NCBI GenBank assembly: GCA_902782815.1
Contig: CACZOS010000053.1
Coordinates: 1-13,387, forward strand
Length of the DNA stretch: 13,387 bases
Source: an uncultured Lachnospiraceae bacterium
GTDB lineage: Bacteria > Bacillota > Clostridia > Lachnospirales > Lachnospiraceae
Direction of reading: 5' to 3'
A program made the translations under genes and the position numbers. Positions 2,106 through 13,387 of the stretch are shown here, piece after piece. A model generated the notes under the pieces. The model was given only the letters and a program-made list of their open reading frames with translations, was not told the DNA's origin and ran no database searches. Numbering within the stretch: the stretch's first letter is position 1; the number at the start of each line of letters is the position of its first letter.

Positions 2106-2208
2106 GGAAAAAAGGAATTATGGGGAAATCAACACTTTAATACTGTGAAGAGATGTGATAGAATGGTTCAGAATAGAAGAGAATTATCTATACGGGGAGG
2201 AAAGGAAA

Positions 2209-3099
2209 ATGTACAAGATCAAAAAGGCAGAGCAATTATCTGCTAACAGTTATCTGATGGATGTTGAAGCGCCTCGTGTCGCAAAACATTGTCAGCCGGG
2301 CCAGTTTGTTATCGTGAAAATGGATGAAAAAGGAGAGAGGATTCCTTTGACCATCTGCGATTATGACAGGAATAAAGGAACGGTTACCATCGTTTTTCAG
2401 CCGGTGGGTGCTTCCACACAGAAATTTGTCCATCTGGGCCAGGGAGACTCTTTCCGCGACTTCACCGGACCTTTGGGATGTCCTTCCGAACTGCTTGAGG
2501 AAGATACGGAAGCACTGAAGGAGAAAAAGATCCTCTTTGTGGGAGGCGGCGTCGGCGCGGCCCCCATCTATCCCCAGGTCAAATGGATGCATGAACATGG
2601 TGTTGGCGTGGATGTCATCATCGGTGCCAAGACCAAAGATCTTCTTATCCTTGAGGAGGAGATGAAAGCGGTGGCGGAGAATTATTATCCCTGCACCGAT
2701 GACGGCTCTTACGGATTCGGCGGAATGGTTACCGCCAGGATGGAAGAATTGGCCGCCGAGGGAAAACAGTACGATGTATGTGTGATCATCGGCCCCATGA
2801 TCATGATGAAATTCGGTGTCCTGACTGCCAAAAAGATCGGTATACCCCAGTGTATCGTCAGCATGAATCCGATCATGGTGGACGGGACAGGCATGTGCGG
2901 TGCCTGCCGTGTGCTTGTGGACGGGAAAGTGAAGTTTGCCTGTGTGGACGGACCGGAATTTGACGGTTACGGAGTAGATTTTGACAGTGCCATGAAGAGG
3001 CAGACTATGTACAAGGATAAGGAACAGAGAAAACTGCTTAAGCTGCAGGAAGGGGACACCCATCATGGCGGATGCGGACAGTGCGGAGGTGAAGAATAA
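2209..3099 (+). CDS. nfnA: NfnA-type ferredoxin-NADP+ reductase subunit (FAD, [2Fe-2S])
   Basis: Small subunit of an NADH-dependent reduced ferredoxin:NADP+ oxidoreductase; in the family it binds FAD and NAD(H) and works with the GltD-like NfnB made by the next gene in flavin-based electron bifurcation. The start is the ATG at 2209 (MYKIKKAEQL), 8 bases after GGGGAGG; a GTG at 2155 in the same frame has no such site. The 296-residue product shows an FNR-type FAD domain (LTICDYD near residue 46; GPLGCPSE), a nucleotide-binding segment FVGGGVGAAPIYPQ, and a C-terminal [2Fe-2S] motif with Asp225, Cys230, Cys233 and Cys245 in DGTGMCGACR...FACVDG. Family members can use Asp plus three Cys as cluster ligands. 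The last residues form a His/Cys/Gly-rich tail (HHGGCGQCGG). The same fold is annotated as sulfide/dihydroorotate dehydrogenase-like; the paired NfnB favours NfnA. Cytoplasmic. Confidence 0.87.
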   Translation: MYKIKKAEQLSANSYLMDVEAPRVAKHCQPGQFVIVKMDEKGERIPLTICDYDRNKGTVTIVFQPVGASTQKFVHLGQGDSFRDFTGPLGCPSELLEEDTEALKEKKILFVGGGVGAAPIYPQVKWMHEHGVGVDVIIGAKTKDLLILEEEMKAVAENYYPCTDDGSYGFGGMVTARMEELAAEGKQYDVCVIIGPMIMMKFGVLTAKKIGIPQCIVSMNPIMVDGTGMCGACRVLVDGKVKFACVDGPEFDGYGVDFDSAMKRQTMYKDKEQRKLLKLQEGDTHHGGCGQCGGEE

Positions 3100-4490
3100 T
3101 GGCACAGGATATGATGAAGAGAATCCCTGTCAGGGAACAGGATCCAAAGGTACGTGCGACAAATTTCGAGGAGGTCTGTTACGGGTATAACGAAGAAGAA
3201 GCCCGGGCGGAAGCTCTCCGCTGCCTCACCTGCAAGAAGGCAAAATGTATAGAAGGATGTCCGGTAAATATCAATATTCCGGCTTTTATCAATGAAATCA
3301 AGGAAGGCAATATTGAGGCGGCCTACAACGTGATCGGGGAGTCTTCCTCCCTGCCGGCCATCTGCGGCCGTGTCTGTCCCCAGGAATCCCAGTGTGAGAG
3401 CAAGTGTATCCGGGGAATAAAGGGAGAGCCTGTTTCCATCGGTAAGCTGGAGAGATTTGTGGCCGATTATGCCCTGGAAAACGATATCATGCCCAAAAAG
3501 GCAGAAACCTCCAACGGGCATAAGGTAGCTGTCATCGGGTCGGGCCCTGCCGGGCTGACCTGTGCCGGCGATCTGGCAAAACTGGGTTATGACGTGACGG
3601 TATTTGAAGCCCTCCACGAGCTGGGCGGCGTTCTTGCCTACGGTATTCCGGAGTTTCGTCTTCCCAAAAATAAAGTGGTAAAAAAAGAGATCGACAAAGT
3701 TAAAGAACTGGGCGTCAAATTTGAAACCAACGTGGTGATCGGCAAGTCCACCACCGTGGATCAGCTCATGGAAGATGAAGGGTTTGAGGCAGTATTCATC
3801 GGATCAGGTGCCGGTCTTCCCATGTTTATGGGAATCCCGGGGGAGACGGCAAACGGATGTATGTCTGCCAATGAATACCTGACCAGAAGCAACCTTATGC
3901 ACGCCTATGATGACGATTATGATACCCCCATCGCAACCGGGAAAAAGGTGGCTGTCGTGGGAGGCGGAAATGTGGCCATGGACGCCGCGAGGACAGCTCT
4001 GCGTCTGGGTGCGGAAGTACATATCGTTTACCGCCGGTCCGAGGCTGAGCTTCCTGCAAGAGCCGAGGAAGTGGAACATGCCAAGGAGGAGGGAGTCATC
4101 TTCAATCTTCTCCAGAACCCCACCGAAATCCTGGTGGACGATAAAGGCTGGGTCCGGGGTATCCGCGTGATCAAGATGGAACTTGGCGAGCCGGATGCTT
4201 CCGGAAGGAGACGCCCTGTGGAGATCCCGGGCTCCGAGTATGAGATCGAGGTGGATACGGTGATCATGTCCCTGGGCACATCCCCCAATCCCCTGATTTC
4301 TTCCACCACAAAAGGGCTGGAAGTAAACCGGAGAAAATGTATCGTGGCGGACGAGGAGAACGGAAAGACTTCCAAGGCCATGGTATACGCCGGCGGTGAC
4401 GCCGTCACCGGTGCGGCCACGGTCATCCTCGCCATGGGAGCGGGAAAGGCGGCCGCAAAGGGAATTCATGAAATGTTTTCCGAACAATAA
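3099..4490 (+). CDS. nfnB: NfnB-type (GltD-like) NADPH-binding electron-bifurcating subunit
   Basis: Large subunit of the NfnAB transhydrogenase. In characterised homologues it carries the bifurcating FAD, two [4Fe-4S] clusters and the NADP(H) site, coupling NADH, reduced ferredoxin and NADP+. The ATG overlaps the nfnA stop codon by one base (TAATG) and has GGAGGT 8 bases upstream, so the two are translationally coupled. The 463-residue protein has two N-terminal cysteine groups (Cys42, 45, 50, 54 and Cys89, 93, 99, 103), an FAD-binding GSGPAG at 147-152, a second dinucleotide fold VAVVGGGNVAMDAARTA near 285, and the C-terminal FAD contact YAGGDAVTGAATV. It matches the glutamate synthase small-subunit family. 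No glutamate synthase large subunit lies nearby and the NfnA partner is present, so Nfn is the better reading. It can supply NADPH from ferredoxin and NADH during fermentation. Confidence 0.9.
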   Translation: MAQDMMKRIPVREQDPKVRATNFEEVCYGYNEEEARAEALRCLTCKKAKCIEGCPVNINIPAFINEIKEGNIEAAYNVIGESSSLPAICGRVCPQESQCESKCIRGIKGEPVSIGKLERFVADYALENDIMPKKAETSNGHKVAVIGSGPAGLTCAGDLAKLGYDVTVFEALHELGGVLAYGIPEFRLPKNKVVKKEIDKVKELGVKFETNVVIGKSTTVDQLMEDEGFEAVFIGSGAGLPMFMGIPGETANGCMSANEYLTRSNLMHAYDDDYDTPIATGKKVAVVGGGNVAMDAARTALRLGAEVHIVYRRSEAELPARAEEVEHAKEEGVIFNLLQNPTEILVDDKGWVRGIRVIKMELGEPDASGRRRPVEIPGSEYEIEVDTVIMSLGTSPNPLISSTTKGLEVNRRKCIVADEENGKTSKAMVYAGGDAVTGAATVILAMGAGKAAAKGIHEMFSEQ

Positions 4491-4552
4491 GAGAGATCGG
4501 AGTGACTTTTTGATTTAGAGGACAGACGGATCTTTATATTTGGGGAATGCAC

Positions 4553-5533
4553 ATGAAGAGAGAAGTCTATGACCAGTCAACCTGTCTGGTGAGTCAGATT
4601 GCTTATCAATATTATATCGAGGAGAAAAAAACTTCGGAGATCGCAGAGCAGTTTGAACTGTCTCCCTCCACGGTGTCCAGGGTACTGAAAAGGGCAAGAA
4701 AGGAAGGGATCATCGAGATCCGCCTTGCCCAGCCCTACCTGGAATGCAATCAGATGGAGAGGTATCTGGAGGAGAGATTTCAGCTGAGGAATGTCTGCAT
4801 CGTCCCCTTAAATAAACCGGAGGAAGAACTGCAGGATAACAATGTGAAGAAACAGGTGGCCCTGGAGGCAGCCAGATATGTGCAGAGGATCATTCGGGAT
4901 GATGACGTTCTGGGTCTTGCCTGGGGCGGGACCATGTACCATCTGATCCAGTACCTTAATCCCTGCAGAAAGGTGAGGGCAAGCATCGTAACCATGCATG
5001 GAAGCATAGCCAACTGTCACGAGGCTCTGGAGGTACAGACCCTGGTAGACCGGGCAGCCATGGCTTTCGGAGGGGAAAAGGTCTCTCTTGAGCACCCGGG
5101 TCTTTACGACACTCCCGAGGAATACCGTAAGATCGCTTCTTCGGAGGAATGCCGGAACATTTTTGAGATGTATGAGAAGATCGACATCGCTGTTACCGGT
5201 GTGGGCACCATGTATCCTGAGAATGATTCCCTTCTGGTCAAAACAGGTTATCTGACCACAGAGGAGGTAGAAGCCCTGGAAGAAGAAAAGGTGACCAGTG
5301 ACCTTATGCTCCATTTTATTCGGGAGGACGGGTCCGAATGCCGCCACCCCATAAAAGAAAGGACTCTTTCCATCAGCCTGGATACCTACCGCAGGATACC
5401 CTGCAAGATCCTGGCGGCTTCGGGATCCGGGAAAGCCCATTCCGTTTTATCCCTCCTGAAAGGGAATTACGTCGATGTGCTGATCATCGATTATCATCTT
5501 GCCCAAAAACTAATCGGATTTTTGGATGAATAA
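4553..5533 (+). CDS. SorC/DeoR-type sugar-binding transcriptional regulator
   Basis: DNA-binding repressor or activator of the SorC family, whose C-terminal domain binds phosphorylated sugars. An N-terminal helix-turn-helix is visible at about residues 26-53 (TSEIAEQFELSPSTVSRVLK). It is followed by the sugar-binding domain with characteristic stretches DVLGLAWGGTM and DIAVTGVGTM. I prefer the ATG at 4553 (326 residues): the purine-rich TGGGGA ends directly against the ATG at 4547, giving that codon no spacing, but leaves 6 bases to 4553. The gene follows nfnB after a short gap with no clear terminator, so read-through from nfnAB is possible. It ends at a strong terminator and lies just upstream of the RLP gene, which makes it the obvious regulator of the cluster. 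Candidate operators are listed separately. The effector is unknown, presumably a phosphorylated pathway intermediate. Confidence 0.9.
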   Translation: MKREVYDQSTCLVSQIAYQYYIEEKKTSEIAEQFELSPSTVSRVLKRARKEGIIEIRLAQPYLECNQMERYLEERFQLRNVCIVPLNKPEEELQDNNVKKQVALEAARYVQRIIRDDDVLGLAWGGTMYHLIQYLNPCRKVRASIVTMHGSIANCHEALEVQTLVDRAAMAFGGEKVSLEHPGLYDTPEEYRKIASSEECRNIFEMYEKIDIAVTGVGTMYPENDSLLVKTGYLTTEEVEALEEEKVTSDLMLHFIREDGSECRHPIKERTLSISLDTYRRIPCKILAASGSGKAHSVLSLLKGNYVDVLIIDYHLAQKLIGFLDE

Positions 5534-5557
5534 AACAACAGTAAACGATTTAACCGG

Positions 5558-5592
5558 GACCGGATCTCCGCTGGAGGATCCGGTCTTTTTTC
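5558..5592 (+). terminator. Intrinsic terminator after the SorC-type regulator
   Basis: GACCGGATCTCC (5558-5569) pairs with GGAGGATCCGGTC (5573-5585), with one bulged G, around a three-base loop, and is followed directly by six T (5586-5591). This is a canonical rho-independent terminator and separates the regulator from the RLP transcription unit. Confidence 0.93.
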
Positions 5593-5640
5593 TGTATAGA
5601 AGCCTTTATAACTGCGGAATTCTGAATTGAGTGAATATTT

Positions 5641-5667
5641 ATTGAAATTTTTTTCTATATTTTCAAT
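5641..5667 (+). promoter_or_regulatory. Candidate SorC-family operator upstream of the RLP gene
   Basis: Inverted repeat with perfect 7-base arms ATTGAAA (5641-5647) and TTTCAAT (5661-5667). The right arm overlaps the presumed -35 region of the promoter ending at 5687. An additional half site-like ATTGA lies at 5626-5630, one turn and a half further out. The same arms recur upstream of the second kinase at 11146-11163. The surrounding DNA is very AT-rich, so chance cannot be excluded for this copy alone. Confidence 0.5.
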
Positions 5668-5687
5668 TTTTTAATTCCAGATATAAT
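5660..5687 (+). promoter_or_regulatory. Predicted promoter of the RLP operon
   Basis: A perfect -10 consensus TATAAT lies at 5682-5687. The best -35 match at suitable distance is TTTTCA (5660-5665, 16-base spacer), a weak match that would fit a regulated promoter. Transcription would start near 5694, leaving a leader of about 75 bases before the ATG at 5769. The promoter sits between two inverted repeats (5641-5667 and 5698-5726). Confidence 0.6.
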
Positions 5688-5697
5688 AAAATCAGAT

Positions 5698-5726
5698 ATT
5701 GATTCGCAATAATTATGCAGATCAAT
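5698..5726 (+). promoter_or_regulatory. 29-base dyad just downstream of the RLP promoter
   Basis: Imperfect palindrome: outer arms ATTGAT (5698-5703) and ATCAAT (5721-5726) and inner arms GCA (5706-5708) and TGC (5716-5718), with 10 of 14 positions symmetric about 5712. Placed right after the predicted start point, it is well situated for a repressor roadblock. The outer arms resemble those of the upstream repeat with A changed to T at the sixth base. Confidence 0.45.
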
Positions 5727-5768
5727 GTGTTTTTGTCATTTTTAACATTAAGAGAATGGAGGTAGAAT

Positions 5769-7094
5769 ATGTTTATTGATCCTATCGTTGTACAGTACCC
5801 TGAAGCTTTAGATCCGGAAGGTTTTGTTATTGCCACCTATTATTGTGCCACACCGAGGGACGTCAACGGCTTAAAGTTCGGTGCCGCCCTTGCCGTGGAG
5901 CAGTCCTGCGGTACCTGGTTAAAGGTTCCCGGTGAGACTGAAGAAGTCAGGGCAAGAGCCATCGCCCGTGTTATCGGTGTCTATGAAGCGCCCGCTTATC
6001 AGATCGGTGTTCCGGAGGGAGTTACCGAGAGACATTTCATTATCCGTATCGCCTTCCCCAAGGGGAACCTGGGACCCTCCGCAGCCATGCTTCTCAGCAC
6101 GGTTATCGGTAATATCTCCAGTTCGGGAAAGGTAAAATTACTTGATCTTGAATTCCCGAAATCCTATCTTGAACTCTACAAAGGACCCAAATTCGGTATC
6201 CCGGGTATCCGTGATCTTCTGGGCGTTTATGACAGACCTCTGCTTAACAACATGATCAAACCCTGCGTGGGTCTCGATCCCCAGATGACCGCCAAACTGG
6301 CCTATGAGGCAGCTGTGGGCGGCGTGGATATCATCAAGGATGACGAGCTGGTCGCCAGCCCCTATTTCTGCCCTCTGGAAGACAGAGTAAAGGCAGTTAT
6401 GCCTGCGGTTAAGGAAGCGGATAAGGTTAAAGGCGAGAAGACATTATTTGCCTTCAACATCACAGACAGGACTGAGAACTTAAAGAAGAACGCCATGACA
6501 GTAATCGAGAATGGCGGTAATGCATTGCTGGTCAACTACAATACCATCGGACTTGACGCTGCCAGAATGCTGGCGGATGATCCGGATATCGATGTTCCGA
6601 TCCTTGCTCATTCCGATTATACCGGCGCTGTATATGAGTCCGAATGGTCCGGCCTCAGTGTGAACCTCATCGGTGCGACACTTCCGAGGCTTTGCGGTCT
6701 TGATATGATCATCGCCCTTACACCTTACGGCAAATTCCCCATGTCCATGGATTCCTTTGTATCCGCAGGATACAAGATGACAGCTCCTCTGGGCCATATC
6801 AAACCTGTATTTGCTATGCCGGGCGGAGGTACAACCCAGGGTCATATCGAAGACGTGATCAACAAGTTCGGTAAAGACGTCATGATCGCTGCAGGCGGTG
6901 CTGTTCACGGCCATCCCATGGGAGCCATCGCAGGTGCCAAGGCCTTCCGTCAGGGTATTGATGCCGTTATGGCAGGCAAGACCTTAAGAGAAGCGGAGAA
7001 GGATAATCCTGAACTCAAGGCTGCCCTTGACGCATGGGGAGTATACGGTGAAGCCAAAGCTACACAGAACTACGATCTTAAATCCAAATTCTAA
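5769..7094 (+). CDS. RuBisCO-like protein (form IV RLP), likely sugar-phosphate enolase/isomerase or decarboxylase
   Basis: A 441-residue member of the RuBisCO large-subunit superfamily. The ATG at 5769 has GGAGGT 5 bases upstream. Equivalents of RuBisCO active-site residues (spinach numbering in brackets) that I can place: Glu44 [60], Thr49 [65], Trp50 [66], Asn115 [123], Lys164 [175] in MIKP, Lys190 [201, the carbamylated Lys], Asp192 and Glu193 [203, 204] in IIKDDE, His281 [294], and Gly376/Gly377 [403/404] in AAGGAVHGHPMG. Changed are Cys166 for Lys177, Ser282 for Arg295, no His at the 327 position, and Gly for Ser379. Lys322 may stand for loop-6 Lys334, but that alignment is uncertain. 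So metal binding and enolisation chemistry look kept while bisphosphate binding is not. Known RLPs act in methionine salvage (MtnW), as methylthioribulose-1-phosphate isomerase, and in apionate catabolism on 3-oxo-isoapionate 4-phosphate. The kinases and dehydrogenases around it point to a sugar or polyol substrate; no methionine-salvage gene is present. Confidence 0.92.
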   Translation: MFIDPIVVQYPEALDPEGFVIATYYCATPRDVNGLKFGAALAVEQSCGTWLKVPGETEEVRARAIARVIGVYEAPAYQIGVPEGVTERHFIIRIAFPKGNLGPSAAMLLSTVIGNISSSGKVKLLDLEFPKSYLELYKGPKFGIPGIRDLLGVYDRPLLNNMIKPCVGLDPQMTAKLAYEAAVGGVDIIKDDELVASPYFCPLEDRVKAVMPAVKEADKVKGEKTLFAFNITDRTENLKKNAMTVIENGGNALLVNYNTIGLDAARMLADDPDIDVPILAHSDYTGAVYESEWSGLSVNLIGATLPRLCGLDMIIALTPYGKFPMSMDSFVSAGYKMTAPLGHIKPVFAMPGGGTTQGHIEDVINKFGKDVMIAAGGAVHGHPMGAIAGAKAFRQGIDAVMAGKTLREAEKDNPELKAALDAWGVYGEAKATQNYDLKSKF

Positions 7095-7108
7095 TCTTCA
7101 ATATTCCG

Positions 7109-7133
7109 GGGGAATCGTCTGCGACGATTCCCC
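7109..7133 (+). other. Perfect 11-bp stem-loop between RLP and kinase genes
   Basis: GGGGAATCGTC (7109-7119) and GACGATTCCCC (7123-7133) are perfect inverted repeats with a three-base loop, 14 bases after the RLP stop codon. No T-run follows (next bases TCATTCCCC), so it is a poor intrinsic terminator. It more likely stabilises the RLP mRNA 3' end or causes partial termination, lowering expression of the kinase. Confidence 0.7.
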
Positions 7134-7193
7134 TCATTCCCCTTATCAATAAATGAACGTTCACATATATTAAATGATCAAAGGAGGTTAATT

Positions 7194-8699
7194 ATGCGTT
7201 ATTTCTTTGGACTTGACCTGGGTACCGGTGGAATCAAAGCCGTTCTTTTTGATGAATTCGGTAAAGAGATTGCATCCGATGTGAAAGAGTACCCTCTTTA
7301 TCAGCCCTATAACGGCTGGTCAGAGCAGGATCCTGAAGACTGGTTCAACTATTCCGTAGTCGCTATCAAAAATGTTATGGAGAAATCCGGAGTAGCCAAG
7401 GAAGATGTGCTGGGTATCGGTTTTTCCGGTCAGATGATGGGGCTTACCCTTCTGGACAAAAACTGTAAGCCTCTCCGCAGAGCTATTCTCTGGAATGACC
7501 AGAGAACAGGGGAAGCAACCGAAGCCATGGCCAAGAAGATCGGGGCCGACAGATTCCTGGCAGTAACCTGCAATCCTCCCAGAGAGGGCCTTACCGCTGC
7601 AAAACTCTACTGGGTTGAGATGAATGAGCCTGAGGTTTTTGCCCAGGTGGAACATATCCTTCTTCCCAAAGACTATCTGCGTTTCCGTCTCACCGGTGAT
7701 TTTGCCGCAGAGATGTCCGACGCTTCCGCAACACAGTTCCTGGATACTCCCAAACGCTGCTGGTCTGAGGAGATGATGGATGGTCTTAATATTAAACCCT
7801 CCATGCTGGGAAAACTCTATGAATCCTGTGAAGTGACCGGCACGCTCCTTCCCGAGGTGGCAGAAGCGGTCGGCTTATTACCCGGCACAGTAGTCGTCGG
7901 CGGAGCAGGCGATAACGCCGCAGCTTCCGTAGGAACCGGCGTTGTTGCAGAAGGAAGAGCCTTCACCACTGTCGGTACTTCCGGCGTTGTATTTGCTTAC
8001 ACAGACAAACCCACCATGGACCCCACCGGAGGAGTCTATACTTTCTGTACCGCAGTTCCGAACGCATGGCATATGATGGGCCTGGTCAACTCGGCAGGTT
8101 TCTCTGTAAAATGGTGGCGTAATACCTTCCTTCCGGATGATGAGGATTATCTTGAGATCGACAAACTGGTTGATTCCTCCCCCATCGGCGCCAACAAGCT
8201 GATCTACCTCCCCTATCTTATGGGTGAGGCATCCCCTTACTGGGATGTTAATGCAAGAGGCGGATTCTTTGGTCTTTCCTCCATCCATACCAAAGCGGAT
8301 ATGACCCGTGCGGTTATGGAAGGTGTCACCTATGGTCTGAATGACTCCATGAAGAAATATCGTGATTTCGGTGTGGACATCAAGACCATGAGGATGTGCG
8401 GCGGCGGCTCCAAAGCCCCCATCTGGAGACAGATGATGGCAGACATCTACGGTATTCCCGTTCAGATCCCGGCCGGTTCTTCCGAGAATGCCGCAGCACT
8501 GGGCGCAGCTATCCTGGCAATGGTTGGCGCAGGAGTTTACAAGACTGTTCCGGAAGCCTGTGACAAACTGGTCAAACTTCGTGACGAGATGGTTATGCCG
8601 GTTCCTGAAAATGTACAGGAATATGCTAAATATAACGGTGTTTACCGCAAGATCTACTCCGCCATCAAACCGATCAATGACGAACTTGCAACACTTTGA
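7194..8699 (+). CDS. Xylulokinase-like FGGY carbohydrate kinase
   Basis: Cytoplasmic ATP-dependent kinase of the FGGY family, closest in pattern to xylulokinase (XylB), which makes D-xylulose 5-phosphate. ATG at 7194 with AAGGAGGT 5 bases upstream; 501 residues, the usual length. Visible motifs: N-terminal phosphate-binding DLGTGGIKAV (Asp8), SGQMMG (78-83), WNDQR (100-104), GLTAAKLYW (132-140), VGGAGDNAAASVG with catalytic-base candidate Asp240, and the C-terminal ATP-binding CGGGSKAPIWRQMMADIYG. Classical xylulokinases have SGQMHG where this has SGQMMG, so the sugar may differ from D-xylulose. No xylose isomerase is present in the window. It follows the RLP gene by 99 bases with a stem-loop between, probably in the same transcript. 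Arg codons CGT/CGC are common here, as in the second kinase, suggesting high expression. Confidence 0.88.
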   Translation: MRYFFGLDLGTGGIKAVLFDEFGKEIASDVKEYPLYQPYNGWSEQDPEDWFNYSVVAIKNVMEKSGVAKEDVLGIGFSGQMMGLTLLDKNCKPLRRAILWNDQRTGEATEAMAKKIGADRFLAVTCNPPREGLTAAKLYWVEMNEPEVFAQVEHILLPKDYLRFRLTGDFAAEMSDASATQFLDTPKRCWSEEMMDGLNIKPSMLGKLYESCEVTGTLLPEVAEAVGLLPGTVVVGGAGDNAAASVGTGVVAEGRAFTTVGTSGVVFAYTDKPTMDPTGGVYTFCTAVPNAWHMMGLVNSAGFSVKWWRNTFLPDDEDYLEIDKLVDSSPIGANKLIYLPYLMGEASPYWDVNARGGFFGLSSIHTKADMTRAVMEGVTYGLNDSMKKYRDFGVDIKTMRMCGGGSKAPIWRQMMADIYGIPVQIPAGSSENAAALGAAILAMVGAGVYKTVPEACDKLVKLRDEMVMPVPENVQEYAKYNGVYRKIYSAIKPINDELATL

Positions 8700-8743
8700 T
8701 CCTTTGGGATTGAAGATATCCTGATCAATAATAGCTGAGTTTT

Positions 8744-8779
8744 GAATAGTTCGGTACCTGAAAGGGTATCGGACTATTC
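8744..8779 (+). other. 15-bp stem-loop between kinase and AraM-like genes
   Basis: GAATAGTTCGGTACC (8744-8758) pairs with GGTATCGGACTATTC (8765-8779) over 15 positions with two G-U pairs and a six-base loop. What follows is TCAATATAAT rather than a T-run, so termination would be inefficient. A TATAAT at 8784-8789 has no matching -35 element. Just upstream, ATTGA (8709-8713) and TCAAT (8725-8729) form a further short inverted repeat like the cluster operators. Confidence 0.65.
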
Positions 8780-8817
8780 TCAATATAATAAGCGTATATG
8801 GTATAACCTGAGAGGAG

Positions 8818-10224
8818 ATGAATATTTTGGATAAACATCTGCTGGAATATTCAATCGATGAACTGGCCCATGGCCGGTTCTCCTGCAGCTGCGGAAAAGA
8901 GCATTATATCGGGATCGAGCATATTGCCATCGGCAAAGGAGCAGTGGAAAGACTGCCGGAATTCCTGGCCGACCAGAATCTGAAGACCGGGGGAAAACTG
9001 CAGAAGACAGATAAGATCTACCTGGTGGCAGATGTCAATACCTGGAAGGTTGCCGGAGAGAGGGTCTACGATCTGATCCGGAAGGCAGGCTATCCGGTTG
9101 ACAGGTTTATCTTCCCATATGAGAAGATGCACACGGAAGAATCCCACATCAAGGAACTCCAGGATGTGGTTCCGGAAGAGATCAGCCTGATGGTTGCTGT
9201 AGGTTCCGGGACTATCAACGATATCACCAGATATATTTCTTTCCATAAAAATATCCCGTATTACATCGTGGGAACAGCTCCCTCCATGGACGGGTATGCC
9301 TCCGATGTTTCCCCCGTGATCATCGATAAGCTGAAAAGAAGCCTTCCTGCTCATTGTGCCAGCGGGATCATCGGAGATACTGATATCCTCGCCACCGCAC
9401 CGGACAAAATGGTGGCAGCCGGGGTGGGAGATATTCTTGCCAAGTTTCTGGATACCAATGACTGGAGAATGTCCCATATTCTCAACGGGGAGTCCTACTG
9501 TGACGAGGTGGCTCAGATCATGATGGATTCCACGGAGAGGGTGGTTGCCAATATCGATGGTCTGGTGAGAAGAGATTCCGATGCCATGCAGTATCTGATG
9601 GAGTCTCTGGTCATGTGCGGTATTGCCATGTCCTTTGTGGGAAGTTCCAGGCCCGGATCGGCAGCCGAACATTCCATGGCCCATGTCATGGAGATGCTTT
9701 CCCTGCTGGGAGGTGACTACGGGGAACTGCACGGAACCTGTGTGGGTATGGCGACCTGTGTGATCACCAGGATGTATGAACTGTTCCTGGACCGGCTCCC
9801 CATCGATTACGACAAGGCCGGGCAGCACGCCGAGGCCTTTGATTACGATTCCTGGGTGGCAGAGATGCGCCGAATCTACACTTCCGCCGCCGACCCTGTG
9901 ATCAAACTCTATGATAAGGAAAAGAGAAATGATCCGGAAAATGTGAAGGCAAGGATAGCCCGGATCAAAGAGAATGAAGCGGAAATCCTTTCCCTGATCA
10001 GAGAGACCGTGGACAAGTCAAAGAGAGCGGAATCCTGTATCAAAGCCTTAAACGGATGGACAAGCCCGGTGGAATTCGGTTTCAGCAAGGAACATATGCG
10101 GGACATCATGCTTTGTTCCAAAGAACAGAGAGACCGTTATGCTGCCCTCCAGTTCTTCTATGAACTGGGTCAGCTGGAAGAGATCACAGACGATTTATTG
10201 AATCAATATTATGAAGAGGTATAA
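8818..10224 (+). CDS. AraM/EgsA-type sn-glycerol-1-phosphate dehydrogenase family protein
   Basis: Metal-dependent NAD(P)H alcohol dehydrogenase of the iron-containing ADH/glycerol dehydrogenase superfamily. Characterised AraM (B. subtilis) and archaeal EgsA interconvert dihydroxyacetone phosphate and sn-glycerol 1-phosphate. Visible: an N-terminal Cys/His motif CSCGKEHYIGIEH (about residues 23-35), nucleotide-binding GSGTIND (129-135), TAPSMDGYAS, and metal-ligand candidates Asp187 (GDTDIL), His285 or His289 (AEHSMAH) and His305 (ELHGTC). At 468 residues it is longer than B. subtilis AraM (about 390), with extra N- and C-terminal sequence. AGGAG (8813-8817) abuts the ATG at 8818, leaving no spacing; a TTG at 8827, 9 bases away, may be the true start (465 residues, MDKHLLEYS). 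Next to a catabolic cluster it may oxidise or reduce a phosphorylated polyol rather than make membrane lipid; the sequence cannot decide. The next gene starts after 3 bases. Confidence 0.88.
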   Translation: MNILDKHLLEYSIDELAHGRFSCSCGKEHYIGIEHIAIGKGAVERLPEFLADQNLKTGGKLQKTDKIYLVADVNTWKVAGERVYDLIRKAGYPVDRFIFPYEKMHTEESHIKELQDVVPEEISLMVAVGSGTINDITRYISFHKNIPYYIVGTAPSMDGYASDVSPVIIDKLKRSLPAHCASGIIGDTDILATAPDKMVAAGVGDILAKFLDTNDWRMSHILNGESYCDEVAQIMMDSTERVVANIDGLVRRDSDAMQYLMESLVMCGIAMSFVGSSRPGSAAEHSMAHVMEMLSLLGGDYGELHGTCVGMATCVITRMYELFLDRLPIDYDKAGQHAEAFDYDSWVAEMRRIYTSAADPVIKLYDKEKRNDPENVKARIARIKENEAEILSLIRETVDKSKRAESCIKALNGWTSPVEFGFSKEHMRDIMLCSKEQRDRYAALQFFYELGQLEEITDDLLNQYYEEV

Positions 10225-10227
10225 GAA

Positions 10228-11025
10228 ATGACATTACCCAAAGAAGAAGCGTTAAAAGGAGTTAAGCTGTTCGTTCTGGACATGGACGGGACAGTTTACA
10301 TCAGCAATGACCTGATCGATGGTTCCCTGGATTTCATCCGAAAAGTGGAAGAGGATCCTGACCGGGATTACATCTTTTTTACCAACAATGCCTCCAGAGT
10401 TCCTTCCGTCTATGTGGAAAAGCTTGCCAAACTGGGGATATTTGTGGATGAGAGCAAAGTGGTGACTGCAGGTGATGTCTGTGCCGAATTCCTTATGGTC
10501 AATTATCCCGGAGCCAGGATCTTCCTGAACGGGACCCCTCTGCTGGAGGATAACTGGAGGAAAAAGGGACTCAATCTGGTGGAAGAAGATCCGGATGTGT
10601 GCGTGCAGAGTTTTGACACCACACTGACCTACCACAAGCTGGACAGGATCTGCCATTATATCCGCAACGGTGTTCCCTTCATCGCCACCCATATGGATAC
10701 CAACTGTCCTACAGATTACGGCTTTATGCCTGACTGCGGAGCCATGTGCACCCTGATCACCGATTCCACCGGTGTCAAACCCAGATTTCTGGGCAAACCC
10801 TGGAAAGAGACGGTGGATATGATCACGGAGATCACCGGCTACAAACCGGAAGAGATGGCATTCGTGGGTGACCGTCTGTACACGGATGTCAGGACGGGAG
10901 TGGACAACGGATGCAAGGGCTTTCTGGTCCTTACCGGTGAGGCGGACATGCAGACGGTGGCAGAATCGGATGTTGTCCCGACCTGCATCTATGACTCCCT
11001 CTATGAGATGTCCAAATATCTGTAA
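10228..11025 (+). CDS. HAD-IIA family phosphatase (AraL/NagD-like)
   Basis: Mg-dependent phosphatase of the haloacid dehalogenase superfamily, subclass IIA, which hydrolyses small phosphate esters such as sugar and polyol phosphates. 265 residues, typical length. All four motifs are present: DMDGT (Asp18 nucleophile, Asp20 acid/base), FFTNNAS (51-56), Lys190 in LGKPWKE, and GDRLYTD (Asp215, Asp220), with the C2 cap between motifs II and III (THMDTNCPTDYGF). It starts 3 bases after the AraM-like stop, with AAGAGGT at 10214-10220 inside that gene, so the two are coupled. B. subtilis has the same pair, araL-araM, in its arabinose operon, where AraL is a broad sugar-phosphate phosphatase. Here it likely removes stalled phosphorylated intermediates or completes a step giving a free polyol. 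Closed by a strong terminator. Confidence 0.9.
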   Translation: MTLPKEEALKGVKLFVLDMDGTVYISNDLIDGSLDFIRKVEEDPDRDYIFFTNNASRVPSVYVEKLAKLGIFVDESKVVTAGDVCAEFLMVNYPGARIFLNGTPLLEDNWRKKGLNLVEEDPDVCVQSFDTTLTYHKLDRICHYIRNGVPFIATHMDTNCPTDYGFMPDCGAMCTLITDSTGVKPRFLGKPWKETVDMITEITGYKPEEMAFVGDRLYTDVRTGVDNGCKGFLVLTGEADMQTVAESDVVPTCIYDSLYEMSKYL

Positions 11026-11032
11026 ATACTTT

Positions 11033-11064
11033 ATCCCGGTGGCTTTTTGTCACCGGGATTTTTC
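11033..11064 (+). terminator. Intrinsic terminator after the HAD phosphatase gene
   Basis: ATCCCGGTG (11033-11041) and CACCGGGAT (11051-11059) form a perfect 9-bp stem with a T-rich loop, followed by TTTTC, 7 bases after the stop codon. It ends the RLP-kinase-araM-araL unit, so the second kinase needs its own promoter. Confidence 0.92.
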
Positions 11065-11145
11065 TGTTTTGGGGGATTTTTATAAATTAATAAACATTCA
11101 GGTCATAAAAATATCTGTCAAATACAGAAAAATATCCGGAATAGT

Positions 11146-11163
11146 ATTGAAATAATTTTCAAT
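11146..11163 (+). promoter_or_regulatory. Candidate SorC-family operator upstream of the second kinase
   Basis: ATTGAAATAATTTTCAAT is an 18-base inverted repeat with perfect 7-base arms and a TAAT centre. From memory, the B. subtilis DeoR operator (a SorC-family protein) is ATTGAACAAAATTTCAAT, with the same length and same six-base ends. The arms equal those of the repeat before the RLP gene. The SorC-type regulator encoded at 4553-5533 is the natural binder. Confidence 0.6.
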
Positions 11164-11172
11164 ATGGTATTA

Positions 11173-11218
11173 TTGCACAAAAAAGATATAATTATTATAT
11201 AAGTTAGTGCATAATGCA
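11173..11218 (+). promoter_or_regulatory. Predicted promoter region of the second kinase, with a downstream dyad
   Basis: Two overlapping -10 candidates exist: perfect TATAAT (11187-11192) without a good -35, and TATATA (11196-11201) with a weak -35 TTGCAC (11173-11178) at a 17-base spacing. An 11-base perfect dyad TGCATAATGCA follows at 11208-11218, and TGCAC (11174-11178) can pair with GTGCA (11207-11211) across the -10 region. The exact start point cannot be fixed by eye. Confidence 0.45.
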
Positions 11219-11262
11219 TACACAAAAGAACGAGTTAATTTATTATTTAAAGGAGGTTGTTT

Positions 11263-12825
11263 ATGGAAAAGAAATATGTAGTTGGTATTGACTGCGGTAC
11301 TACCAGTTCAAAGACGGTTGTCTTTGACTTTGAAGGAAATCAGATCGGTGTAGGCCAGCATCTTAATCCCCTTACCTATCCCAGCCAGGGCCGTGTGGAA
11401 TGTGACGGTCCGGCCATGATCGAGAATCTCTATCGTACTACCAGAGATGCCCTGGAAGACGCCAGGATCGATCCGGAAGAGATCGCTGCCATCAGCTGTA
11501 CCATGTTCCGCTGTACAGCCATCACCCGTGACAAGGACGGCGGATTTACCACACCCATCATCATCTGGCAGGACCTCCGTGGTGTCGAGATGGTTCCCGA
11601 GATGGATCAGATGCTTCAGGATGCCGGTCTTTCCGCAGATGATCTCTATGATATGTCCGGTATGCCTCTGGCAGGCACCTATCCTCTGGCTAAACTTCTC
11701 TGGGTAAAGAAATACAATCCCGAAGCATATGAGAATGCAACCAGGATCCATACCATGATGGGTCTTCTGAATAAGGCATACGGCGCAGATGACTATTATG
11801 ATGATTACAGTGATACTCCCTGGATCCAGTTATGCGGTGAGGACTTCCATTACAGCCAGAAACTCTGCGACGCATTCGGCATTGATCCCAACAAGCTGGC
11901 TCCTCTGGCTCAGACCGGAACAAAAATCGGTGAAGTGACTCCCGAGGTTGCCTACAAGACCGGCCTCGCTGTAGGAACACCCCTTATCATGGGTACCGGC
12001 GACCAGCAGATCGCCTGCCTGGGCTGCGGCTGTGTTGATGAAGGTATCGGTTTTGCCTGCGGCGGAACAGCAGGAATCACAGCCGGCAAGTCCATGAAGA
12101 TCCTCCGTGACCCCGACAGAAAATGTTACGTACTGGGTACTCCGGACGGCGCATACGTTATGGAAGGCCAGTCCAACTCTGCTGCTTCCGCATTCAAGTG
12201 GTTTAAGGATACTATCGCTCACGGTGAGTCCATGGCTGCGGTTCATACCCACGGAAATCCCTATGATATCCTGACCCATGCCGCCAGATATTCCAAACCC
12301 GGCGCTAACGGCGTGTTCTTCCTTCCCTACATGCAGGGTGCCAACACTCCCAACTATGACCTGAATGCCCGTGGTACCTACACCGGCATGACCCTTGCCA
12401 CCACCCGTGAAGATATTATCCGTGCCACCATGGAAGGTATTGTATTTGACCTTAAGGATATGCTTCTTGCCATGCTTGACGCGAAGGTACCTCCTTTCAA
12501 TACCGTACGTATCACAGGCGGTATCGCTGTTTCCGAAATCTGGAACCAGATGCAGGCAGATATCTATAACTGGAATGTGGAGACCGTGGCAGTCAGTGAA
12601 GCTACCGCTCTGGGCTGTGCTCTGGTTGCCGCAGTCGGCGCCGGAATTTACCCGACCTACAAAGATGCAGTAAACAAGATGGTCAAGGTTGTCAAGAGAT
12701 ATACACCGAATCCGGATAATGTTCCGGTCTATGAGGACGCGTTTAAAGTATGGAGGCAGATCTTCAGGGATCTCCATCAGAATTCCACCCAGATGATCGC
12801 GGATTTCCAGGATAAATACAGATAA
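11263..12825 (+). CDS. FGGY-family carbohydrate/polyol kinase (second, divergent from glycerol kinase)
   Basis: ATP-dependent FGGY kinase of 520 residues. The ATG at 11263 lies 6 bases after AAAGGAGG; the in-frame TTG at 11257 abuts that site and is rejected. Motifs: GIDCGTTSSKTVVFD (Asp10), WQDLR (102-106), MGTGDQQIACLG with catalytic Asp247, the ATP-loop GGTAGITAG, and C-terminal GGIAVSEIWNQMQADIYN. WQD and GDQQ recall glycerol kinase, but the QRE substrate motif of glycerol kinase is absent: the matching stretch is ISCTMFRCTA (78-87). An insert with many Asp and Tyr (GADDYYDDYSDTPW) falls in the lid region. A larger polyol or sugar than glycerol is therefore likely; erythritol kinase (EryA) is about this size and, like here, lies beside a GlpD-type dehydrogenase. 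It has its own promoter and operator and shows the CGT/CGC-rich Arg usage of a well-expressed gene. Confidence 0.87.
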   Translation: MEKKYVVGIDCGTTSSKTVVFDFEGNQIGVGQHLNPLTYPSQGRVECDGPAMIENLYRTTRDALEDARIDPEEIAAISCTMFRCTAITRDKDGGFTTPIIIWQDLRGVEMVPEMDQMLQDAGLSADDLYDMSGMPLAGTYPLAKLLWVKKYNPEAYENATRIHTMMGLLNKAYGADDYYDDYSDTPWIQLCGEDFHYSQKLCDAFGIDPNKLAPLAQTGTKIGEVTPEVAYKTGLAVGTPLIMGTGDQQIACLGCGCVDEGIGFACGGTAGITAGKSMKILRDPDRKCYVLGTPDGAYVMEGQSNSAASAFKWFKDTIAHGESMAAVHTHGNPYDILTHAARYSKPGANGVFFLPYMQGANTPNYDLNARGTYTGMTLATTREDIIRATMEGIVFDLKDMLLAMLDAKVPPFNTVRITGGIAVSEIWNQMQADIYNWNVETVAVSEATALGCALVAAVGAGIYPTYKDAVNKMVKVVKRYTPNPDNVPVYEDAFKVWRQIFRDLHQNSTQMIADFQDKYR

Positions 12826-12837
12826 AAGATAAATCCC

Positions 12838-12891
12838 AACATCAATCAGACATTCACTGCCAGTATGAATCCATAATTCAAGAGTGATGTT
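12838..12891 (+). other. Possible folded segment after the second kinase gene
   Basis: AACATCA (12838-12844) and TGATGTT (12885-12891) are perfect inverted repeats enclosing a smaller one, ATTCA/TGAAT. The arms are short and far apart, so this is only suggestive of a structured RNA in the 161-base gap between kinase and dehydrogenase. Confidence 0.3.
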
Positions 12892-12897
12892 AGTATC

Positions 12898-12946
12898 GAA
12901 GAAGTATTATGCTCTTTCCGGACAGACTGCAGTATAATACTTCTTC
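12898..12946 (+). other. Long stem-loop between second kinase and GlpA-like gene
   Basis: GAAGAAGTATTAT (12898-12910) and ATAATACTTCTTC (12934-12946) are perfect 13-base inverted repeats; adding one G-U and two more pairs gives a 16-bp stem with a 17-base loop containing TCCGGA. TTAGTTTT follows, a broken T-run, so partial termination is plausible. The stem ends 40 bases before the next start codon, leaving the ribosome site (GGAGGT, 12973-12978) free. Confidence 0.65.
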
Positions 12947-12986
12947 TTAGTTTTACCCAAACAGATAGGAATGGAGGTATGTAACA

Positions 12987-13387
12987 ATGTATGACATTAT
13001 CGTGATCGGAGGCGGTGTTACCGGTACGTGTATCGCCAGAGAACTTTCAAAATATCAGGTGAAAATGTGCCTGATCGAGAAGGGGGACGACGTGGCTTCC
13101 GGAACATCCAAGGCGAACAGCGGTGTTATCCACTCCGGTTTTGACGCTAAGCCGGGAACATTGATGGCCAAACTGAATGTGCGAGGCAATGAACTCTTAT
13201 ATAAACTTGCTCCCCAGCTTGATTTCCCGGTTAAACAGAACGGCGCTCTGGTTGTCTGTACCGATCCCGCCCAGAGAGGAGACCTGGACAGACTTCTGGA
13301 TCAGGCTCATAAGAACGGGGTTCCGGGTGTCCGGATCATAGAGAAAGAGGAAGTACTGGCCATGGAGCCCAACCTTACTCCCAACAC
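12987..13387 (+). CDS. GlpA-type FAD-dependent (glycerol-3-phosphate-like) dehydrogenase, 3' partial
   Basis: N-terminal 133 residues of an NAD(P)/FAD-dependent oxidoreductase of the DAO/GlpA family; the frame runs off the window. ATG with GGAGGT 8 bases upstream. Visible: the FAD Rossmann motif VIGGGVTG (6-13) with the ribose-binding Glu31 at the end of the second strand (CLIEKGDD), then the flavin-contacting GTSKANSGVIHSGFDAKPGTLMAKLN. Clostridial homologues are about 480-500 residues, often followed by a second FAD oxidoreductase and a small DUF1667 protein (GlpABC-like set); here the downstream is not visible. GlpA oxidises sn-glycerol 3-phosphate to dihydroxyacetone phosphate. Behind a kinase that lacks the glycerol-kinase substrate motif, it may oxidise another polyol phosphate, as EryB does for erythritol 4-phosphate. 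The family is clear, the substrate is not. Confidence 0.85.
   Translation, partial: MYDIIVIGGGVTGTCIARELSKYQVKMCLIEKGDDVASGTSKANSGVIHSGFDAKPGTLMAKLNVRGNELLYKLAPQLDFPVKQNGALVVCTDPAQRGDLDRLLDQAHKNGVPGVRIIEKEEVLAMEPNLTPN

Follow-up and report, generated by a model that had tools for sequence, protein, structure and literature searches.

What reaction does a RuBisCO-like protein (RLP) perform when it is encoded among sugar kinases and a polyol-phosphate dehydrogenase? The question is raised by a contig of an uncultured Lachnospiraceae bacterium, analysed over its entire length of 13,387 nt (G000:C53:1-13387, hereafter the window) and belonging to an incomplete genome (G000, 84.62% complete). Its cluster spans positions 4547-13387, and open reading frame (ORF) calls and profile searches place all genes on the plus strand in the order SorC1, RLP, FGGY kinase 1, AraM, AraL, FGGY kinase 2 (FGGY2) and, at the contig end, the first part of a GlpO/GlpA-type dehydrogenase gene. 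An initial annotation made from the sequence had given the same gene list, shared orientation and position, all of which the gene calls and profile matches confirm. The RLP probably carries out a step of sugar-alcohol breakdown and not CO2 fixation; we tentatively take it, at somewhat less than even probability, to serve polyol catabolism as a ketose-monophosphate enolase/isomerase.

The number of RLPs characterised so far is no more than a handful, to judge from an excerpt of one review (PMC10176493). Among the matches listed in the open-access literature, titles and abstract openings make no mention of the present RLP branch together with FGGY kinases or polyols.

Active site and clade of the RuBisCO-like protein

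The RLP (5769-7094, plus strand, 441 aa) has the large-chain domain (PF00016, 179.2 bits against a cut-off of 30.1) and the fold of RuBisCO by which form IV proteins, or RLPs, are recognised; the mean pLDDT of its AlphaFold model is 91.2. The metal- and carbamate-binding residues K201, D203 and E204 correspond to K190, D192 and E193, the residues binding the P1 phosphate are retained, and E60, N123 and K334 are kept. The full bisphosphate site is gone, K177, R295, H327 and S379 being replaced by C166, S282, I315 and G352. These losses set the RLP apart from bona fide RuBisCO, and they make a monophosphate substrate likely. The replacement of K177 by cysteine belongs to a signature of the branch, NNMIKPC. 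Across the 84 related sequences of the active-site table, which include some near-duplicates, equivalents of K175, K201, D203, E204, H294 and N123 occur in 84/84, and arginine at 295 and histidine at 327 in 0/84.

The closest solved structures are those of MtnW (2zvi and 2oem, 36-37% identity). The RLP scores 269.1 bits against MtnW 2oek, and 215.4 and 210.3 bits against 1tel and 2qyg, which stand for the Photo and NonPhoto RLPs (C. tepidum, R. palustris RLP2). A first tree, with one DeepYkr-type and one form I sequence, suffered from long branches and was replaced by one with 28 of the 84 related sequences, the references, no form I sequence and three extra DeepYkr-type sequences found through the L226 protein. 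We infer that the L226 group is DeepYkr, because its best solved match, 3qfw, is a Rhodopseudomonas palustris RLP distinct from RLP2 (2qyg); the consulted part of one paper gives the name DeepYkr to the R. palustris RLP other than RLP2 (PMC5893883). MtnW, OiaX and DeepYkr each form a clade of their own, apart from the window RLP, with support of 100/100 for the two MtnW sequences, 100/99 for the DeepYkr clade and 100/100 for the OiaX split. The window RLP sits in a group of 28 sequences supported at only 83/69, within which a group of eight reaches 100/100.

The RLP misses both MtnW equivalog cut-offs (NF007095, 338.1 of 409 bits; TIGR03332, 292.8 of 513.6 bits) and that of the OiaX model (227.9 against 700 bits), and the DeepYkr motifs KDDH and GGRF are absent from it, KDDE and YGKF standing instead. 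The initial annotation's idea of a new route for this RLP is supported in so far as the protein belongs to none of the three functionally assigned clades placed in the tree; the accompanying list of known RLP roles lacked the D-hamamelose oxygenase, which we encountered as an entry in a reference list.

A shared operator-like motif

The RLP appears to be linked to two other genes of the cluster by their promoters. The sequences TTGAAATTTTTTTCTA (5642-5657, plus strand, 5' of RLP) and TTGAAATAATTTTCAA (11147-11162, plus strand, 5' of FGGY2) are copies of one 16-bp motif, first seen as a repeat in the window, and both match TTGAAATWWTTTTCWA with 0 mismatches. At up to 3 mismatches the window contains 6 matches against 1.59 expected, a number reached in 2 of 200 shuffles. 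A search of five genomes (G000 and its sisters G006, G012, G016 and G024) at up to 1 mismatch returned 21 matches, vs 5 for the reversed pattern used as control. Eleven of the 21, including all five perfect ones, lie 5' of RLP, FGGY2 or GlpA, a count to be read with the pattern having been drawn after 8 of these 11 promoters had been viewed whole or in part; the three previously unseen matches (one in G024:C182, two in G006:C108) are all at GlpA genes. All five genomes have one site 5' of RLP, which in the four sisters carries at most 1 mismatch. FGGY2 is preceded by the motif in G000, G012 and G016, each time with 0 mismatches, and GlpA in G024; in G006 two sites lie between divergent GlpA genes. 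In the window, no copy was seen between RLP and FGGY kinase 1.

Since the motif is shared 5' of RLP and of FGGY2 or GlpA, it suggests that RLP, FGGY2 and the GlpA-type dehydrogenase form one regulon. The probable regulator is SorC1 (4547-5533, plus strand), a SorC/DeoR-type sugar-responsive protein in which the sugar-binding domain (PF04198, 187.1 bits) is accompanied by matches to several helix-turn-helix models, as in SorC regulators; its adjacency makes the motif its candidate operator. Promoter motifs common to the cluster had been proposed in the initial annotation, and the proposal stands for the operator-like motif at RLP and FGGY2. It fails for sigma-70-like sites, which we rejected as a shared motif because their number is at chance level (14 vs 11.6 in shuffles, sd 3.5).

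A one-mismatch copy of the motif is also found in G016:C18 (L260), between a class II aldolase gene and a PHP-type gene, and in G001 (L149) these two genes likewise stand ahead of FGGY2. A weaker copy was noticed, by eye only, at L027.

Conservation of the cluster and wider neighbourhoods

Uncultured Lachnospiraceae are among the close relatives from the genus of the window. The gene order is kept in G012 (L017, L147) and G016 (L014, L148) on two contigs each, SorC1-RLP-SorC2 on one and FGGY1-AraM-AraL-small gene-FGGY2 on the other, with GlpA following FGGY2 in G012. The small gene between AraL and FGGY2 encodes a cupin in G012 and looks alike by eye in G016. The window lacks SorC2 (7095-7197) and the cupin (11026-11256) at the places where its sisters carry them, which may be a true loss or an effect of assembly. 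G006 carries the order SorC1-RLP-SorC2-cupin-AraM-like-FGGY1 on a single contig, where GlpABC and a homologue of FGGY2 lie some 9-16 kb further upstream; in G024 the genes are divided between two contigs, SorC1-RLP-SorC2 fragment on the first and AraM-AraL-GlpA-GlpB-DUF1667-FGGY2 on the second. Homologues of FGGY2 also occur where no RLP was found, with GlpA in G001 and G015 and alone on a short contig in G014, so FGGY2 is a separable module.

Matches to the RLP at E <= 1e-60 were found in 37 of 398 sampled genomes of the phylum, a count that includes MtnW-like sequences. Neighbourhoods within 6 kb were compared at 42 bacterial and 47 archaeal RLP loci, with 17 mtnA loci of genomes that carry an RLP as controls. 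Left out of the counts were duplicates or partial copies (L017, L024, L025, L026, L028, L201), a locus without RLP (L200) and two loci of high G+C content in which the ORF caller picked antisense frames (L030, L034). The counts are lower bounds, as the simple ORF caller missed genes in other G+C-rich loci, and the loci are related by descent and are not independent draws. The bacterial loci contain genes for phosphoenolpyruvate (PEP) hydrolase-like proteins (18), UPF0261 (16), SorC (12), ComB-like phosphatase (11), GatC (9), GlpA, FGGY kinase, class II aldolase and a glycerol-3-phosphate-responsive antiterminator (7 each), and triose-phosphate isomerase (TPI) and RpiB (4 each). FGGY, GlpA or a galactitol-type phosphotransferase system (PTS) accompanies RLP in 16/42 loci vs 0/17 mtnA controls (p = 0.0015, a guide only, the loci being related); class II aldolase (3/17) is the sole match in the controls among the gene types asked for.

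At the archaeal loci (L035-L081), mostly Asgard by record title, the RLPs are the nearest non-bacterial relatives found, 44-52% identical to that of the window over most of the protein, and FGGY kinases lie within 6 kb in 19/47 and class III aminotransferases in 10/47. In group E, five RLPs (L023, L194, L195, L197, L199) are near TPI- and RpiB-like genes, and L194 is also accompanied by GlpABC and two FGGY kinases. RLPs related to that of the window, from archaea as well as from further Clostridia, adjoin FGGY kinases, galactitol-type PTS, GlpABC or TPI/RpiB genes, or lie in UPF0261/PEP-hydrolase operons. The neighbourhood of RLP, AraM, AraL and two FGGY kinases described in the initial annotation is conserved in order in G012 and G016 and in parts in G006 and G024, and gives way to different company beyond the genus. 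Because the RLP there adjoins PTS, UPF0261/PEP-hydrolase and TPI/RpiB genes, the exact cluster of the window represents one local form of a broader association.

An operon recurring in Clostridia (L206-L218) consists of genes for a GlpP-like antiterminator, RLP, a PEP hydrolase-like protein, a ComB-like phosphatase (PF04029), UPF0261 and a second PEP hydrolase-like protein. UPF0261 and the PEP hydrolase-like protein correspond to the two halves of tomato Tm-1.

Other genes of the window

FGGY kinase 1 (7194-8699, plus strand) is of the xylulokinase type: it exceeds the cut-off of the XylB model TIGR01312 (525.7 against 380.25 bits), its best solved relative is xylulose kinase 2itm, and it is 98% identical in G012 and G016 and 88% in G006. 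FGGY2 (11257-12825, plus strand; PF00370/PF02782) is a putative polyol/ketose kinase that stays under every listed kinase equivalog cut-off, those of XylB and GlpK included, and its best solved relatives are autoinducer-2 kinase 5ya0 and then glycerol kinases. The contig end cuts the following gene (12987-13387, plus strand), of which the first 133 codons encode the start of a FAD-dependent polyol-phosphate dehydrogenase of the DAO family, best matched by a type 2 glycerol-3-phosphate oxidase model (NF033460, 127.6 bits on 133 aa). A full-length protein of this GlpO/GlpA type, in L147, has a DAO and a BFD-like [2Fe-2S] domain and is nearest to L-alpha-glycerophosphate oxidase 4x9m; downstream of a homologue in L150 lie a GlpB-like protein and then DUF1667.

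The AraM-type protein (8818-10224, plus strand; PF13685) resembles glycerol-1-phosphate dehydrogenase, with 9h4x as its best solved relative and 172.8 bits against the corresponding model, below the 413 cut-off. It is followed by an AraL-type HAD-IIA phosphatase (10228-11025, plus strand; TIGR01460, 125.9 bits, cut-off 100.15) and a hairpin resembling an intrinsic terminator (11033-11059, plus strand; 11 pairs and a T tail), identified by consensus match only. A second AraM-AraL pair is found in the same genome (L280, 3872-10155 of G000:C133), its AraL 92% identical to that of the window. The recurrence of the pair without RLP, beside RpiB and transketolase genes and an FGGY kinase, suggests that AraM-AraL is a general accessory pair and not a core step.

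No methionine-salvage or DUF1537 genes were called in the window, which agrees with the statement of the initial annotation that hallmark partners of known RLP routes are missing; mtnA lies elsewhere in the genome. The window contains neither TPI nor RpiB genes, no tRNA, and no Rfam match to an RNA regulator at gathering score. A penicillin-binding protein gene precedes SorC1, followed at 2203-4490 by genes for a FAD/NAD-binding protein (PRK06222 family) and a GltA-type protein. The pair resembles NfnAB, and G012 and G016 likewise have it 5' of the cluster.

Proposed pathway and alternatives

In the pathway we propose, a SorC-controlled regulon would phosphorylate a polyol (C4 to C6) through FGGY kinase 2, a role that a galactitol-type PTS could fill in related loci. 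The GlpO/GlpB/DUF1667-type dehydrogenase would oxidise the carbinol next to the phosphate to yield a ketose-1-phosphate, from which the RLP would abstract a proton, so that the carbonyl shifts along the chain in the manner of the DeepYkr reaction. The product would pass to the pentose phosphate pathway or to an aldolase, FGGY kinase 1 would feed free ketose into the same pool, and AraM and AraL might balance redox or remove dead-end phosphates. The reaction of the RLP, its direction and the order of steps are those we infer from the gene set. A precedent for 1,3-isomerisation is given by the DeepYkr RLP, which, according to the excerpts consulted, converts 5-methylthioribulose-1-phosphate to 1-methylthioxylulose-5-phosphate (PMC4958253, PMC5893883). 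The new RLP-based catabolic route envisaged in the initial annotation gains from the separate clade, the recurring gene order and the motif that the genes for kinase 2 and the GlpA-type dehydrogenase share with RLP; it was drawn too broadly, as RLP keeps other company beyond the genus and AraM-AraL also occur without it.

Several observations weigh against an isomerase in polyol catabolism. The motif is a short one, and not all of its 21 matches are at the target genes: 10 lie elsewhere, nine of these by genes without an evident link as judged by eye. As 43/84 related sequences keep S379, the case for a lost second phosphate site is built chiefly on R295, H327 and K177. UPF0261 and/or PEP-hydrolase genes accompany RLP in 21/42 bacterial loci, more commonly than polyol genes do, vs 0/17 controls; L027, with an 83% identical RLP, has them and no FGGY kinase within 6 kb, and PEP-hydrolase genes are present on the RLP contig of G006. 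The ancestral and still main role of the RLP might accordingly lie in a UPF0261/PEP-hydrolase pathway that polyol genes joined only recently and locally. We consider this rather unlikely: in the genus of the window the shared motif links RLP to FGGY2 and GlpABC, and separate branches show FGGY, PTS or GlpABC partners. The two readings may even describe one pathway, as the literature searched yielded no function for the UPF0261/PEP-hydrolase proteins. K334 is a further point, being kept in the window RLP, along with E60 and N123, and in five OiaX-type sequences, and replaced by serine in the MtnW and by arginine in the DeepYkr sequence; its retention could point to CO2 chemistry. The RLP would then be an OiaX-like decarboxylase/transcarboxylase of a phosphorylated 3-keto acid, with the kinases and the dehydrogenase making the acid or processing a tetrulose phosphate product. 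The TPI/RpiB-like genes near group E relatives, as near OiaX in Rhizobium, fit this possibility, but all five of these RLPs lack E60 and four lack K334. DUF1537-type kinases occur in 11/36 RLP genomes, including the four sisters, on contigs other than that of RLP, and none turned up in G000, a genome 84.6% complete. None of the 84 relatives has the R295 that the five OiaX-type sequences keep, and the tree and the OiaX model separate the two groups. The initial annotation had let the RLP either rearrange or decarboxylate its substrate; the loss of R295 and H327 from the phosphate site favours monophosphate chemistry, and decarboxylation, which we deem unlikely, is still conceivable.

The cluster could also serve plain glycerol catabolism, with kinase 2 as glycerol kinase, GlpABC as glycerol-3-phosphate dehydrogenase, AraM/AraL interconverting dihydroxyacetone phosphate and glycerol, and RLP as a bystander. 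AraM, GlpO and kinase 2 do resemble glycerol enzymes at family level, and the glycerol-3-phosphate antiterminator near RLP in 7/42 loci would suit such a role. Searches for canonical GlpK came back empty in the incomplete genome of the window, which fits glycerol catabolism, and gave just a sub-cut-off match in G012; both outcomes count against the isomerase. Canonical GlpK exceeds its cut-off elsewhere in 6/8 related genomes, however, which makes kinase 2 unlikely to be a plain glycerol kinase, as does its score of 204.9 against the GlpK cut-off of 590.35; with the motif at RLP in all five genomes searched, we find this explanation improbable. Very improbable is a methylthioribulose-phosphate enolase or isomerase in methionine or 5-deoxyribose salvage. 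Beyond the missed MtnW cut-offs, the separate clade and the lack of the KDDH and GGRF motifs of the L226 sequence and 3qfw, mtnA never lies on the RLP contig stretch examined in any genome. Salvage was dropped as a co-occurrence candidate, mtnA over its cut-off being equally common in genomes with RLP (29/36) and without an RLP match (54/66; Fisher p = 1). The label of methionine-salvage enolase, which some databases attach to members of the branch, is not supported.

Returning to the preferred reading of a ketose-monophosphate enolase/isomerase, its extension to the entire branch is more doubtful. The branch, common to gut Clostridia and Asgard archaea and characterised by cysteine in place of K177 with E60, N123 and K334 largely kept, might catalyse a new reaction on polyol-derived ketose monophosphates, by carbonyl migration or possibly reversible decarboxylation. 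If true, an RLP-based reaction would give polyols a route into central metabolism. RLPs like that of the window are fairly common in the phylum and reach Asgard archaea, and the candidate regulon narrows the substrates and partners to a small set. Among the residues kept by the branch are ones that handle CO2 in RuBisCO, and their presence on a monophosphate scaffold bears on the kinship of RuBisCO and sugar-phosphate enolases.

Comparison with known systems

The window RLP resembles the DeepYkr 5-methylthioribulose-1-phosphate 1,3-isomerase of R. rubrum and R. palustris in its RuBisCO fold, the metal-site lysine and aspartate, the retained E60 and N123, the single sugar monophosphate expected as substrate and the cupin nearby in sister genomes. 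DeepYkr differs in its length (371-381 aa in the reference sequences vs 441 aa), its KDDH and GGRF motifs, its well-supported clade and its company: of four plasmid records, two place mtnA next to it, and every one has transketolase/DXS-like genes there. On a Vibrio nigripulchritudo plasmid (L288) a DeepYkr-type RLP is found with transketolase-like genes and an FGGY kinase.

MtnW, the 2,3-diketo-5-methylthiopentyl-1-phosphate enolase, provides the closest solved structures and has likewise lost R295 and H327, but in the sequence compared it carries G60, K123, V177 and S334, and it falls in a separate clade with models whose cut-offs the window RLP does not reach, and has mtnX/mtnB partners that the window cluster lacks. 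The OiaX types (3-oxo-isoapionate-4-phosphate decarboxylase/transcarboxylase) are sugar-catabolism RLPs that share K334 and, with some relatives of the window RLP, the proximity of TPI/RpiB; they differ in keeping R295, in their clade and in their DUF1537 kinase and ApnO-like dehydrogenase partners, which are missing from the window. Bacterial tetritol pathways of the EryA/EryB/EryH/EryI type have, to our knowledge, no RLP, and differ from the window in their TPI/RpiB-like isomerases, which do have counterparts near the RLP of L194. They combine an FGGY kinase with a GlpD-like polyol-phosphate dehydrogenase, and the window follows the same logic.

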